From positions 1 to 46,602 of the IMG/VR virus record IMGVR_UViG_3300021087_000562: a stretch of DNA of 46,602 bases. The stretch is one strand, 5' to 3'. Both the position numbers and the translations under genes were made by a program. This DNA is from a virus. The notes beneath the pieces are model-generated. The model was not told where the DNA came from. It saw only the letters and a program-made list of their open reading frames with translations, and did no database searches. Of this stretch, positions 1 to 5,008 are shown piece after piece (within the stretch, counting starts at the first letter, position 1; the number at the start of each line of letters is the position of its first letter).

Positions 1-323
1 CGTCTATGGGTAATAGGTCTGAATTCATTGTAGTCATATCTGATTAATCCGAAGGTATAATGTTTTGGTTTGAATTCGTATCTTTGTTTGAATGCAATTA
101 AACCTTTGTTGGTAGTTACAATCTCATCCTCATCTTTATAACGATAATCAAATTCAATATCTCTTTCAAATTTTCCAACTGGCCAAGTATAGTCTATACT
201 TGTATTAAGAGATAAATCACTATCATCAAGTTTACCGCTAAAGTCTATTTGACCGCCAGCATTTACAACTGGCGATACAAATAGTAGGCCTAATAAGACC
301 ACAGTTAAAAGTTTTCTATTCAT
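1..323 (-). CDS. DUF481-like outer-membrane beta-barrel protein (partial, C-terminus beyond window)
   Basis: The leftward reading frame starts at ATG 323-321 and stays open to the window edge, giving about 107 residues. Residues 1-22 form a clear signal peptide: basic MNRK, a hydrophobic core rich in Leu/Val, and a VNA-G cleavage site. The mature part alternates polar and aromatic residues in beta-strand style (IDFSGKL, SLNTSIDYTWP, DIEFDYRYKDEDE, YEFKPKHYTFGLIRYDYNEF). That pattern resembles DUF481/YdiY-type outer-membrane proteins. The start codon shares one base with the stop of the preceding membrane-protein gene (TAATG), so the two are probably translationally coupled. A secreted outer-membrane protein is unusual in a phage structural operon. 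A role in altering the infected cell's surface or in superinfection exclusion is inference. The family call rests on pattern recognition over a partial protein. Confidence 0.6.
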   Translation of the reverse strand, partial: MNRKLLTVVLLGLLFVSPVVNAGGQIDFSGKLDDSDLSLNTSIDYTWPVGKFERDIEFDYRYKDEDEIVTTNKGLIAFKQRYEFKPKHYTFGLIRYDYNEFRPITHR

Positions 324-694
324 TATCTCTCAACTATATCATGCTGAGTTGATGTTGAATTAACATACAACCCAAACCATGCAGCACCCGCACCGACTAA
401 TACAGAGATTAATCCTGATTGTGCTACTGTTGGATCTGTTAAAGCCATAAACCAATTAGCAGATTGAAACAGTAAGTAGATATACATAGTGATAAACGCT
501 CTAGGAAATATTCTCCATCTTGAGAAATACTCAGGTGCTAGCCACATCCAACCCATTTTATTAGGGCCTGCTGCGTCTTTCATCTTTTGAATTTCGTCTT
601 TAAGAGCACCTATCTGTGCATTCTTTTCTTCATATTCTACTAAATCAATCTGTACTTGATTTCTTTGGTTATAAGTTTGTTGACCTTCAGCCAT
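323..694 (-). CDS. Small two-helix membrane protein, holin-like candidate
   Basis: A 123-residue protein. Residues 1-45 are hydrophilic and probably helical (charged EYEEKNAQIGALKDEIQKMK). A short linker containing WMWLAPEYFSRWRIFPR follows, then two hydrophobic segments at about 65-84 (AFITMYIYLLFQSANWFMAL) and 93-113 (GLISVLVGAGAAWFGLYV), and a short polar tail. A good ribosome site (GAGGAAAG) lies just upstream of ATG 694. The gene lies directly after the gp26 frameshift extension and overlaps the DUF481-like gene by one base. Size and topology fit a holin or another small phage inner-membrane protein, but no endolysin is visible in the window. The function is therefore a guess and the membrane call is firm. 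Confidence 0.6.
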   Translation of the reverse strand: MAEGQQTYNQRNQVQIDLVEYEEKNAQIGALKDEIQKMKDAAGPNKMGWMWLAPEYFSRWRIFPRAFITMYIYLLFQSANWFMALTDPTVAQSGLISVLVGAGAAWFGLYVNSTSTQHDIVER

Positions 695-705
695 TTTACT
701 TTCCT

Positions 706-909
706 CTATCTTGCAGCTTTCATTTCTGCTTCTTGTTTTCTATTTCGTTCTTCCTCTTCTTTCAAATGTTTGATTAAGAGTTGAACATATACTTCCCTCT
801 CCCAAGGTATCATGTTATCTAGTTCTGTTAAACTATACCCATGATGTTGCATTAACCCAAAATTAGTATGAGTATGATTATACAAATTTTCATGTGAGAG
901 GGCTATTCG
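706..909 (-). CDS. gp51-like tail chaperone extension, predicted to be made by -1 frameshift from gp26
   Basis: This frame is open from the gp26 slippery site to TAG 708-706 and encodes 67 residues. It begins RIALSHENLYNHTHTNFGL and contains the conserved-looking block HGYSLTELDNMIPWEREVYV, followed by a highly charged helix (KEEEERNRKQEAEMKAAR). If read by -1 slippage after gp26 residue 237, it gives a product of about 304 residues. The only internal ATG (852-850) has no Shine-Dalgarno sequence upstream and would give 48 residues. The segment resembles the short gp51 or tail-assembly-chaperone C-termini of T4-like and other long-tailed phages. A G/GT-like pair is the favoured reading. A separately initiated 48-residue protein is the alternative. 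Confidence 0.65.
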   Translation of the reverse strand, partial: RIALSHENLYNHTHTNFGLMQHHGYSLTELDNMIPWEREVYVQLLIKHLKEEEERNRKQEAEMKAAR

Positions 910-1619
910 AAAAAACTTCCAAGACCCTCTAATACCAAGTGATTATTTTTTTCACATACTGAACATTTATATTCATGTTCAATAACTAGTTTTGGTGCAC
1001 TGTCAAAAAATTCCTGTATCTGTGTAAACATTATAGTAGACATGCTATCTATAAATGATGTTAGTTCTTTTTCTGTAAAATCATCCTTTCCAAGGACTTC
1101 ATCGCCATCAATAATTGAAACAACACATTTTGTAATAACTTTGAACATTTCACTAGTTGGTATGTCACCATCTGTCATATTTAAATCTTGCATCATTGAA
1201 TAACTTGGGAATTGAAGTTCCATTGCAACTGTAGGAGTTAGTTTAATTATCGGACTAACTTCTTTTTCTGAATGAATTACTTTAGCAGATTCTAAATCTA
1301 TTTTAATATCATTATCTGATTTACAATCATCAATATTACAAGAGCCCATAAGATCAGATGTTTCTCCAACAGATTTAATTCTTAATTGTAAAAACAACCA
1401 TTCTATATCTACTACTGGTAAAGTTTTAACATTTACATTATCAACACAGACTTCAATTAATCTCATCATTTCACGAACAACATCATTTTGATTTTCACTT
1501 TCCTGAGCTATCAGTAACATTTTTTGTTCACCAACTAAGAATGGTCTGAATTCAACCATTTGTCCATTAGATGGTAATGTGCAACTGTGCTTAGGAGTTT
1601 CAAGTTTTGGTAACGCCAT
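903..1619 (-). CDS. gp26: T4 gp26-like baseplate hub / tail assembly protein
   Basis: A 238-residue protein with the plan of the T4 baseplate protein family that includes gp26 (T4 gp26 is about 208 residues). An N-terminal segment (residues 1-40) contains the typical FRPFLVGEQKMLLIAQE. A helical core with VVDIEWLFLQLRIKSVGE follows at about 68-86, and two cysteine pairs (CNIDDC near 93-98 and CSVC near 219-222) look like a split zinc ribbon. It would act in assembly of the hub or tail. The start is ATG 1619, preceded by GAGGAAA; a CTAAATAGTATT late-promoter-like element lies further upstream. The end carries a slippery heptamer leading into a gp51-like extension, making this the short form of a probable two-product gene. 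Confidence 0.75.
   Translation of the reverse strand: MALPKLETPKHSCTLPSNGQMVEFRPFLVGEQKMLLIAQESENQNDVVREMMRLIEVCVDNVNVKTLPVVDIEWLFLQLRIKSVGETSDLMGSCNIDDCKSDNDIKIDLESAKVIHSEKEVSPIIKLTPTVAMELQFPSYSMMQDLNMTDGDIPTSEMFKVITKCVVSIIDGDEVLGKDDFTEKELTSFIDSMSTIMFTQIQEFFDSAPKLVIEHEYKCSVCEKNNHLVLEGLGSFFE
909..915 (-). promoter_or_regulatory. Programmed -1 ribosomal frameshift slippery heptamer T TTT TTC
   Basis: In the gp26 frame the mRNA reads AGT TTT TTC GAA TAG, so T-TTT-TTC is a textbook X-XXY-YYZ heptamer two codons before the stop. A Shine-Dalgarno-like AGAGGG lies at 930-925, nine bases upstream, the kind of spacing that stimulates -1 shifting in bacteria. Downstream, GCCC and AAAATT can pair with AATTTT and GGG across about 40 bases, a weak candidate stimulatory stem. 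Slippage puts the ribosome exactly into the 67-codon extension frame. Confidence 0.72.
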
Positions 1620-1659: not shown

Positions 1660-2292
1660 TTATCCAAAGAGCTTATTTGAAATTTTTCCTCTAATTCTAC
1701 TTCCAATTCTTCTACTATGTTTATTAAACAGACCACCCAAGTAAGATGAAGAAGGTGTATTCGCATAACTTGAATACCAAGTTCTATAAGTAAAAGTAAC
1801 ATCAAAAGTTTGAATAGCAGATGATGCCATATCTAAACTTACTGATCCTAATACTGTAGGAAATGCTTCCATTAATTCTACTTCATAGACAGTATTACCA
1901 CCTCTATCTAGTTGTCTTATAGCAACTTGACCTGGATAAGTTGGTACTTCAACCCTATCTGCATTATGATGTCTAGGATACCTTATACTGTAATCATCAT
2001 TATAAATATATTGTTGCCATAGTTCTATTTTTTGTCTATCTTCAAAAGTACTGTCTAACATAAACCCTAATACTACATTCTCATCATACTTAACACCCTT
2101 TACTAGATGATCTGGAGGGCCGCCAGGTATTTTATTAAATGAAGATAACTCTAAAGTTTTACCAGGCATCGTCGCTTTTTGACATCTAAGCGCCCGCATT
2201 CTTAAATCTATTCCTGGTACAAATATATCAACCTCAAACCTATTCGCTCTGGCCATTCCGTCTATGTGGGTTAAAAATCTATTTATATGCAT
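1660..2292 (-). CDS. Tail tube-fold protein, gp54-like baseplate tail tube initiator (gp19 paralogue)
   Basis: A 210-residue protein with the N-terminus typical of T4-type tail tube folds (INRFLTHIDGMARANRFEVDI). A conserved core follows: MRALRCQKATMPGKTLE, DRQKIELWQQYIYND near 85-99, and VELMEAFPTVLGSVSLDM near 140-156. These match gp19-like tube proteins. Its position beside gp4 and gp26, and not after a sheath gene, favours a baseplate tube initiator or junction protein (gp54 class) over the main tube protein. The C-terminal 30 residues are basic (KHSRRIGSRIRGKISNKLFG). ATG 2292 has AGGAGTAG upstream and starts one base after the previous stop. A TATAAATA motif lies inside the first codons but is explained by MHINR coding. 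A main tube protein remains possible. Confidence 0.65.
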   Translation of the reverse strand: MHINRFLTHIDGMARANRFEVDIFVPGIDLRMRALRCQKATMPGKTLELSSFNKIPGGPPDHLVKGVKYDENVVLGFMLDSTFEDRQKIELWQQYIYNDDYSIRYPRHHNADRVEVPTYPGQVAIRQLDRGGNTVYEVELMEAFPTVLGSVSLDMASSAIQTFDVTFTYRTWYSSYANTPSSSYLGGLFNKHSRRIGSRIRGKISNKLFG

Positions 2293-2886: not shown

Positions 2887-3342
2887 TTAATAGATGTTTA
2901 TGTCTTTTTCTGTAATAATTCTCCAACCCCACTTTCTTTCTTCACAAAATTTAACGGCTTGTTTCCATTTAGCATCATTAATGATATAAGTATTAACTTC
3001 TTTCAAATATCTCTTTGAAGTTCTACCTGTTTTAGTTAGTTTTCTTTTGGGGTCGGGTGGTTTACAATGTCTTGAAGGTTTTATCTCTATTAAATCTTCT
3101 ACTATCACGCCTGATGCATTTTTATACTTCATATAGAAATCTGGAAAATAGCGGTGTACCCTCTTGTCTAACGGTGAGACATAAGGTATAACGATTTCCT
3201 CGGAACTCCATTTCAATACAGAAGGTGTATTATCCAGATAAACCATGAATCTACGCTCTAATAAACTACGATAAATAATGTTTGTAGGATTACCTTTGTA
3301 CTTATTTGGATTCTTTGGTCTAAACTTTCCTTTATAAGACAT
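2887..3342 (-). CDS. gp4: Head completion nuclease gp4
   Basis: A 151-residue protein, the same size as T4 gp4 (150). It trims or protects packaged DNA ends and completes heads before tail joining. The N-terminus (MSYKGKFRPKNPNKYKGNPT) and the SLLERRFMVYLD block are typical of the family. The PD-(D/E)xK-like catalytic set is visible: Glu29 in LLERRF, Asp68 in RYFPDFY, and Glu86-Ile-Lys88 in LIEIKPS. The C-terminal half is basic (KRKLTKTGRTSKRYLKE), consistent with DNA binding. It is the first leftward gene from the divergent region. Its ATG overlaps the rightward late promoter element, and no clear Shine-Dalgarno sequence precedes it. Confidence 0.88.
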   Translation of the reverse strand: MSYKGKFRPKNPNKYKGNPTNIIYRSLLERRFMVYLDNTPSVLKWSSEEIVIPYVSPLDKRVHRYFPDFYMKYKNASGVIVEDLIEIKPSRHCKPPDPKRKLTKTGRTSKRYLKEVNTYIINDAKWKQAVKFCEERKWGWRIITEKDINIY

Positions 3343-3347
3343 AAATA
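3340..3347 (+). promoter_or_regulatory. Late promoter CATAAATA driving the rightward baseplate block
   Basis: A T4-type late -10 element on the plus strand in the 40-bp divergent region, overlapping the gp4 start codon. Initiation is expected near 3353, giving a leader of about 30 bases with AAGGA before gp48. The 12-bp AT palindrome TAATATATATTA lies at 3352-3363. Confidence 0.65.
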
Positions 3348-3382
3348 ACTATAATATATATTACAATTACAAGGACAAGAAT

Positions 3383-5008
3383 ATGGGAACTTCATCTAAA
3401 GATAGACCAATTATACAATCGACCGCGGGAGATGGTAATTCGCTTACAAGCAAATTTGGTATAGGCAGAAATCTATCAAATAGATTTGATCAAAGAGTAG
3501 GAGATGGTTTAACAGATTTATTAAGTGGAGCAATAGGTGTTAGAACATCTAATATCCATGACATTTCACAAAAAGTAAAAGACGCTAACAAAAGAGCTTA
3601 TGAAGAAAGAACCTTAGCTTTGAACCAAAGTGCAGAGAGAAAAGGGGCTGCAGCTGTACCTAAAAAACAAACAGTATTAGTCTTTCCTGAACACTTTTTT
3701 AATGAAAAAGGAAGGTCAACAGGATATAACGCTAATTTATTAGATGAAAATTGTTTTAAGCCTGGATCCGAGGAACAGGCCGGAGCAAAGGCCCAAAACC
3801 TGAAAGAATCATATAAAGCACAAACTATGGCCTTTCCTAATTCAATACATTTTAGATCATTGCCTAGACCAAAAGTTGATACAACTCTAGGTTGGTGGTC
3901 TAATGAAACAGAAGAAACAAAATCAAAAGCTAATGATCCCGCTAATGAAGAAGTGTTTGATATTTTCTTATATCTTCCACATGATTTGGGTGATGGAATT
4001 AAAGTTACTTATGAATCAGCTGAAGGTGGAATGGTAGATACTTTCTTTGCAAGATTGTTTACTGGTGGTGATGGTACTACTGATGATTTAATGGGTAATA
4101 GAGGTTTTGATATGTCTGAAGTAATGAAAATGTTTCAAGGAATGTTACCAGGAGGAGCTATTATACAAAGAGCTGCAGGCGCTATATCAAATCCGATGAA
4201 GTTTCAATCATTCACTGGTTTAGAGTTCAGAAGTTATACTTATAAATTTACATTAAAACCTTCATCAACACTAGAAGCACAAACTATTAGACATATTATT
4301 CATGCATTTAAAGTTTCAATGTTACCAGGCACAGCTGGAAATAATGACAGAATTTGGACTATGCCAAATGAATGGTTAATTAAATTTCAAGGACCTATCA
4401 AAAGATGGATTGACTTTCCATTAACTGTTGCACTTGAATCATGTGATGTTAATTATGCTGCAGGGGGTGGATATGCACTTATGGAAGATGGTTCACCACA
4501 AGCTATTGAACTGACATTAACCTTTAAAGAAACAACTCAAATGTCAAGACAAAAATATGAAAGACAGGTTTCCGCATATTCGGCGGCCGGAGGTAACAGA
4601 ATAGCTGCTGACAGAACAACTCAGCTGAGTCCTGATATATATGGTCCAGTAGCTGAGTATTTAACGGATGGATCTAATGAACAAGGATTTGTTGGACCTC
4701 CTGAACCTCCTGAAAAATCTCAAGAACAGATAGACAAGGAGTTTTACATCATACAACGGATGCAGCATAGTGATTCTCTTTTAAGGAGTGATACTGCATT
4801 AAAAGATAATATCACACTACTAGGTCAATATCAAGGACATAATATCTATAGTTGGACTTGGAATAATATAGCACAATCTCTTGGAATAACCGATCCAGAA
4901 ATCGGAGTTACTGCACAAGAAGTTGCACATATACCTAATGTAGTATCTACACATGAGAGTGGTTATTTACAAGTTGATTATGGTATTTTATTCGGTAATA
5001 AGGAGTAA
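3383..5008 (+). CDS. gp48: Baseplate tail tube cap gp48 with a C-terminal S74-like domain
   Basis: A 541-residue protein, longer than T4 gp48 (364). The tube-cap region lies at about residues 145-400. Hallmarks are NSIHFRSLPRPKV, VFDIFLYLPHDLGDGIKV, FRSYTYKFTLKPSSTLEA, the MPNEWLIKFQG block and the RWIDFPLTVALESCDVNYA block. It caps the baseplate hub and starts tube polymerisation. After a Pro/Glu linker (GPPEPPEKSQEQ), residues 469-541 look like a Peptidase_S74 intramolecular chaperone: SDTALKDNI (Ser469 and Lys474 as the expected dyad), IYSWTWN, GVTAQEV and GYLQVDYGIL. This is unexpected on a tube-cap protein. AAGGA precedes ATG 3383. The gene opens the rightward baseplate operon and ends 3 bases before gp53. 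The gp48 identity is strong; autocleavage is inference. Confidence 0.85.
   Translation: MGTSSKDRPIIQSTAGDGNSLTSKFGIGRNLSNRFDQRVGDGLTDLLSGAIGVRTSNIHDISQKVKDANKRAYEERTLALNQSAERKGAAAVPKKQTVLVFPEHFFNEKGRSTGYNANLLDENCFKPGSEEQAGAKAQNLKESYKAQTMAFPNSIHFRSLPRPKVDTTLGWWSNETEETKSKANDPANEEVFDIFLYLPHDLGDGIKVTYESAEGGMVDTFFARLFTGGDGTTDDLMGNRGFDMSEVMKMFQGMLPGGAIIQRAAGAISNPMKFQSFTGLEFRSYTYKFTLKPSSTLEAQTIRHIIHAFKVSMLPGTAGNNDRIWTMPNEWLIKFQGPIKRWIDFPLTVALESCDVNYAAGGGYALMEDGSPQAIELTLTFKETTQMSRQKYERQVSAYSAAGGNRIAADRTTQLSPDIYGPVAEYLTDGSNEQGFVGPPEPPEKSQEQIDKEFYIIQRMQHSDSLLRSDTALKDNITLLGQYQGHNIYSWTWNNIAQSLGITDPEIGVTAQEVAHIPNVVSTHESGYLQVDYGILFGNKE

Follow-up and report, generated by a model that had tools for sequence, protein, structure and literature searches.

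In several T4-like groups frameshifting was reportedly found by Vladimirov and colleagues in 2022, and genes 26 and 51 of T4 itself are said to be separate. Among long-tailed phages as a whole, a 2016 review describes the G-T frameshift of the tail-assembly chaperones as conserved 'except T4' (PMC5009743). By the account of one paper that cites Vladimirov, Gautam and Davidson (Virology 2022; 566:9-15), some T4-like phages do without frameshifting and have a short gene alongside a longer, fused one (PMC10885494), and another, citing the same work, mentions -1 sites of the poly-T kind in the TAC-N genes of T4-like phages (PMC12846349). The gp51 protein of T4 is required for assembly and is absent from the particle (PMC3004832). 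No direct description of a gp26/gp51 frameshift was found in the open papers searched.

The locus considered here is on the minus strand of an unannotated metagenomic viral contig of 46,602 nucleotides (IMGVR_UViG_3300021087_000562), the whole of which is referred to as the window. Its gp26-like gene very probably gives rise to two forms of tail-assembly chaperone, one short and one long, by programmed -1 frameshifting, in the manner of the lambda G and GT proteins.

A gp26-like gene and its -1 frame extension

The gp26-like gene (903..1619, minus strand) encodes 238 amino acids, the putative short tail-assembly chaperone (TAC-N, equivalent to lambda gpG). It matches the Pfam family T4_baseplate (PF12322; E-value 9.8e-51, 173 bits, above the gathering cut-off of 24.5) and phrog_150 (6.8e-59). 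An AlphaFold2 model of the protein has a mean pLDDT of 92.8, and its top-probability fold match in the PDB is the tail assembly chaperone gp13 of HK97 (2ob9), a weak match (probability 0.47, E-value 1.5), so that the likeness of the modelled fold is only suggestive; the gp26 sequence profile, run against solved structures, gave no useful match.

The 3' end of the gene reads TTA GAG GGT CTT GGA AGT TTT TTC GAA TAG CCCTCTCAC on the minus strand, and contains the slippery heptamer T TTT TTC (915-909), which is decoded as Phe-Phe in the 0 frame and is the predicted site of the -1 shift. The preliminary description had recognized the heptamer within AGT TTT TTC GAA TAG correctly, but had placed it two codons before the stop; a single codon (GAA) separates it from the TAG (903..905) that ends the unshifted reading. 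The -1 frame (706..909, minus strand) begins with CGA (909-907) and, as had been claimed, stays open for 67 codons, to a stop at 708-706. The protein that it would add, RIALSHENLYN...HGYSLTELDNMIPWEREVY...MKAAR, is the putative C-terminal, T-like domain of a long form (TAC-NC): it matches phrog_634, the 'baseplate hub assembly catalyst' family of gp51 (1.1e-25), and also aligns to the last 47 positions, the C-terminal end, of phrog_150.

Family-wide, no stop codons are present over the extension in the -1 frame (4913 codons), whereas per 100 codons the 0 frame has 9.7 and the +1 frame 9.3; the median dN/dS is about 0.3, and the positions that vary most are the third codon positions of the -1 frame. 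The structure model of the extension is helical, with a mean pLDDT of 82.7, and a Foldseek search with the extension alone found no match.

Directly upstream of the chaperone gene is a gene for a tail-tube-like protein (1660..2292, minus strand) that resembles the baseplate tail tube initiators gp48 and gp54 (phrog_45, tail tube, 2e-28). The downstream neighbour (323..694, minus strand; 123 amino acids) belongs to a family with no assigned function (phrog_10198, 9.4e-20), the next genes likewise lack an assigned function, and no tape measure gene was identified directly downstream in the available sequence. In the related pelagiphage HTVC008M, one small gene is present between the chaperone and the tape measure, which is two genes on. 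Positions 1-325 of the window (minus strand) and 3294-4378 of a related locus, L003, both downstream of the chaperone gene, encode a protein with a signal-peptide-like N-terminus and a predicted membrane protein, neither of which has PHROG matches.

Conservation of the heptamer and the question of a separate gp51 gene

Relatives were collected in two ways. A profile search with the gp26 motifs alone gave a first set, the best 80 viral contigs of the larger family, and a search with the extension (the T domain) gave 80 loci, one of which was already in the first set, leaving 79 others. A heptamer T TTT TT(C/T/A) is present at the end of gp26 in the same register in all of the best 80 gp26-motif matches, and is followed by the same -1 domain in all but one of them, which ends at the contig edge; the 79 loci selected by the extension also have the heptamer in register without exception. 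Together with the window, the first set forms 62 clusters at 70% identity, every one of which carries the heptamer. From codon usage alone, the mean chance of TTT with a preceding T is 0.42 per cluster, giving a joint chance of about 10^-24 across the 62 clusters if these are assumed to be independent, shared ancestry being ignored. The presence of the heptamer in every locus of both sets is not a matter of chance. The heptamer and the -1 domain are found in the cyanophage isolates P-SSM7, metaG-MbCM1, S-ShM2, MED4-213, S-SZBM1 and MA10, and the same arrangement is present in HTVC008M, in phages of Sinorhizobium, Rhizobium, Acidovorax and Aeromonas, and in Vibrio phage VS1, Pseudomonas phage Astolliot and Stenotrophomonas phage Mendera. 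Comparison of heptamer, register and -1 domain strongly supports the lambda-like frameshift that had been suggested from the window.

A different reading, implied by the annotations of cyanophages, is that gp51 is a gene of its own, translated from its own start after termination of gp26. Many cyanophage records do show a separate gp51 that starts near or slightly past the gp26 stop, and in some relatives of the Ackermannviridae type the stop and a start overlap as TAATG. The earliest start codons in the -1 frame of the window, however, are a TTG at codon 10 and an ATG at codon 21, neither of which is preceded by any anti-Shine-Dalgarno pairing (+1.3 and -0.9 kcal/mol, respectively), in agreement with the earlier remark that the inner ATG has no ribosome site, and 29 of the best 80 gp26-motif matches have no ATG, GTG or TTG within the first 12 codons. 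Protein conservation also extends upstream of the annotated gp51 starts, up to the slip site, and the invariant heptamer is left unexplained by a separate gene. Among the homologues examined in this lineage, none has the two frames separated by a normal start and ribosome site in the absence of the heptamer. The chance that gp51 is separately initiated is thus slim, and with frameshifting as the preferred reading, the annotation of a very common gene pair of marine viruses would be corrected, gp51 not being a separate gene in this lineage.

In cyanophage records such as GU071103, GU071096, OL473597 and JN371769, gp51 either has no annotation or is entered as a short separate gene with its start within the extension; such annotations remove the start of the conserved domain.

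A T-like domain in the -1 frame was also noted in Salmonella phage Se_EM1 (locus L182) and Dickeya phage Ds16CZ (locus L186), where gp26 ends near position 2295, and in Pseudomonas phage Cygsa01 (locus L012, positions 1400-1460). The site in these three loci is ATT TTC ATT/ACC TAA, without the canonical heptamer and with TAATG overlaps in some; they may slip at a different sequence or rely on stop-start coupling.

Candidate stimulators and the proposed mechanism

The hexamer AGAGGG (925..930, minus strand), an internal Shine-Dalgarno-like element nine bases 5' of the heptamer, had been proposed as a stimulator. Across the 62 clusters, predicted pairing of the region 5' of the site with the anti-Shine-Dalgarno sequence averages -6.4 kcal/mol, compared with -5.0 kcal/mol in synonymous shuffles (z -8.6), and none of 200 shuffles reached the observed value; in a second set of 61 further clusters, chosen to be less than 75% identical to the first, z is -6.4. 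In every cluster the best hexamer is located 6 to 9 bases 5' of the heptamer; that of the window is AGAGGG, at nine bases.

RNA folding 3' of the site was examined in stretches of 60 bases from just beyond it, with synonymous shuffles made from each gene's own codons. Near the site, folding is stronger than in the shuffles, with a difference of about 2.3 to 3.5 kcal/mol and z values of about -8 to -12; in other parts of gp26, z is between -1.8 and -5.3. This excess fades about 60 bases downstream, and the second set also has it (z -8.7). Because the fold of the window alone is ordinary (z -0.7, not significant), its candidate 3' stimulator, a predicted UAGCCC/GGGUUA stem with an inner AAAAUU/AAUUUU stem (853..905, minus strand), is proposed from the excess folding of the family as a whole. 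In a search for a consensus 3' hairpin shared across loci, no pair exceeded a mean probability of 0.18, indicating that the 3' structures differ by lineage. The 3' arms nevertheless pair better with their native partners than with partners of matched GC content taken from other loci (z -3.3 to -4.7, with controls mostly around -1).

Pairing of the Shine-Dalgarno-like element with CCCTCT just after the stop, which is striking in the window, was rejected, as across loci the element pairs with its own partner no better than with permuted ones (z -0.15 and +1.0).

A three-part signal resembling that of dnaX, composed of an internal Shine-Dalgarno element, U UUU UUN and a lineage-specific 3' structure, may be envisaged. 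Selection on the element and the structure across T4-like myoviruses would then exceed what coding requires, and the signal would have disappeared as most Straboviridae came to carry the gene in duplicate, as separate gp26 and gp51; we regard this proposition as one that could go either way. The conserved stimulators are a concrete target for a reporter test.

We infer that ribosomes slip at this site, at a rate such that the majority would end at the TAG and release the short chaperone gp26 (TAC-N), and a minority would shift by -1 on T_TTT_TTC to make a long gp26-gp51 protein (TAC-NC) with the junction GSFF-RIALSH. Slippage would be aided by the internal AGAGGG and probably also by 3' RNA structure. 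Lambda G/GT is the model here for the two forms, the proportion in which they would be made, their putative function as chaperones and what they would do at the tape measure: by that analogy, many short and few long molecules would coat the tape measure protein, and the C-terminal domain of the long form would recruit tail tube subunits.

Slippage of RNA polymerase on the T run, rather than of the ribosome, could also yield a shifted message, and runs of seven to eight T in some relatives would favour it. Polymerase slippage usually needs more than six T, however, and the window has only six; the majority of heptamers in the second set end in C or A, and a phased internal Shine-Dalgarno-like element at near-constant spacing fits ribosomes, not polymerase, leaving this explanation a chance that is slimmer still. 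Homopolymers are error-prone, but the idea that a sequencing or assembly error has split one long gene is excluded by replication and has virtually no chance of being right, because two contigs from the metagenomes of other samples have the identical junction (0 and 1 mismatches over 3400 shared bases), which indicates that the T run is real, and because the site is also conserved among isolate genomes and 159 other loci.

T4, the Straboviridae and other described systems

In T4, gp26 and gp51 are indeed encoded by separate genes, as the preliminary description stated, but gp51 is more than the extension. Both T4 proteins belong to PF12322, and gp51 spans positions 13 to 280 of the 282 in phrog_150. 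Residues 6-200 of Straboviridae gp51 align to the profile of this lineage's gp26 (E-value 2.5e-13) and residues 206-250 to the profile of the -1 extension (2e-8); by these alignments, gp51 consists of a complete gp26-like protein to which the extension is joined in frame. The T4 gp26 gene ends GAG TTC TTT GAG TTA CTA TAA, in which both Phe codons are kept and the heptamer is gone, and its -1 frame runs into gene 25. Nor is there a heptamer in gp26 of the Straboviridae among the contigs, whereas Vibrio phage VS1 (Straboviridae, Schizotequatrovirus) retains GAT TTT TTC GTA TAA and the -1 domain. In most Straboviridae, including T4, gp26 is the short form and has no heptamer, and gp51 joins a gp26 paralogue in frame to the same C-terminal domain, frameshifting having apparently been kept in Schizotequatrovirus; the simplest history would be that duplication replaced frameshifting within the family.

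In phage RB43 (locus L178, positions 1501-2794), one strand carries both paralogues, gp51 and gp26, in tandem, as opposed to the divergent genes of T4; such a pair is a possible intermediate of the duplication.

The locus resembles T4 in its PF12322 protein and in the C-terminal domain that it shares with gp51, and differs from T4 in that the latter has two divergent genes, with TTC TTT GAG in place of the heptamer and no need of a frameshift. Lambda has a non-contractile tail, unlike the virus here, and the heptamer G GGA AAG, and no sequence homology to lambda G/GT was found here. In lambda, as is proposed for this locus, a short protein and a rare -1 fusion are made, the slip site being located late in the first gene (PMC5009743). 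The chaperone genes of Vandenendeviridae and Andersonviridae, such as that of Pseudomonas phage Adele, likewise combine a conserved -1 site that contains GTTTTT with a -1 frame that stays open, but are found in other phage families, and their motif is described as GTTTTT (PMC12846349). Also close are the T4-like TAC-N/TAC-NC genes of Vladimirov et al. (2022), which, as related in the papers that cite that work, share a gp26-like TAC-N, a poly-T -1 site and a gp51-like C-terminal domain with the locus here, the difference being that the virus here is a metagenomic contig without annotation. Most of the finding was anticipated there: the link that had been drawn from the T4 arrangement to tail-chaperone frameshifting in general is correct but, by the same accounts, not new. 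Nothing beyond the generality of the stimulators on the 5' and 3' sides may be new; the principle of chaperone frameshifting in T4-like phages has been published since 2022, and this locus is a well-supported further example of it.
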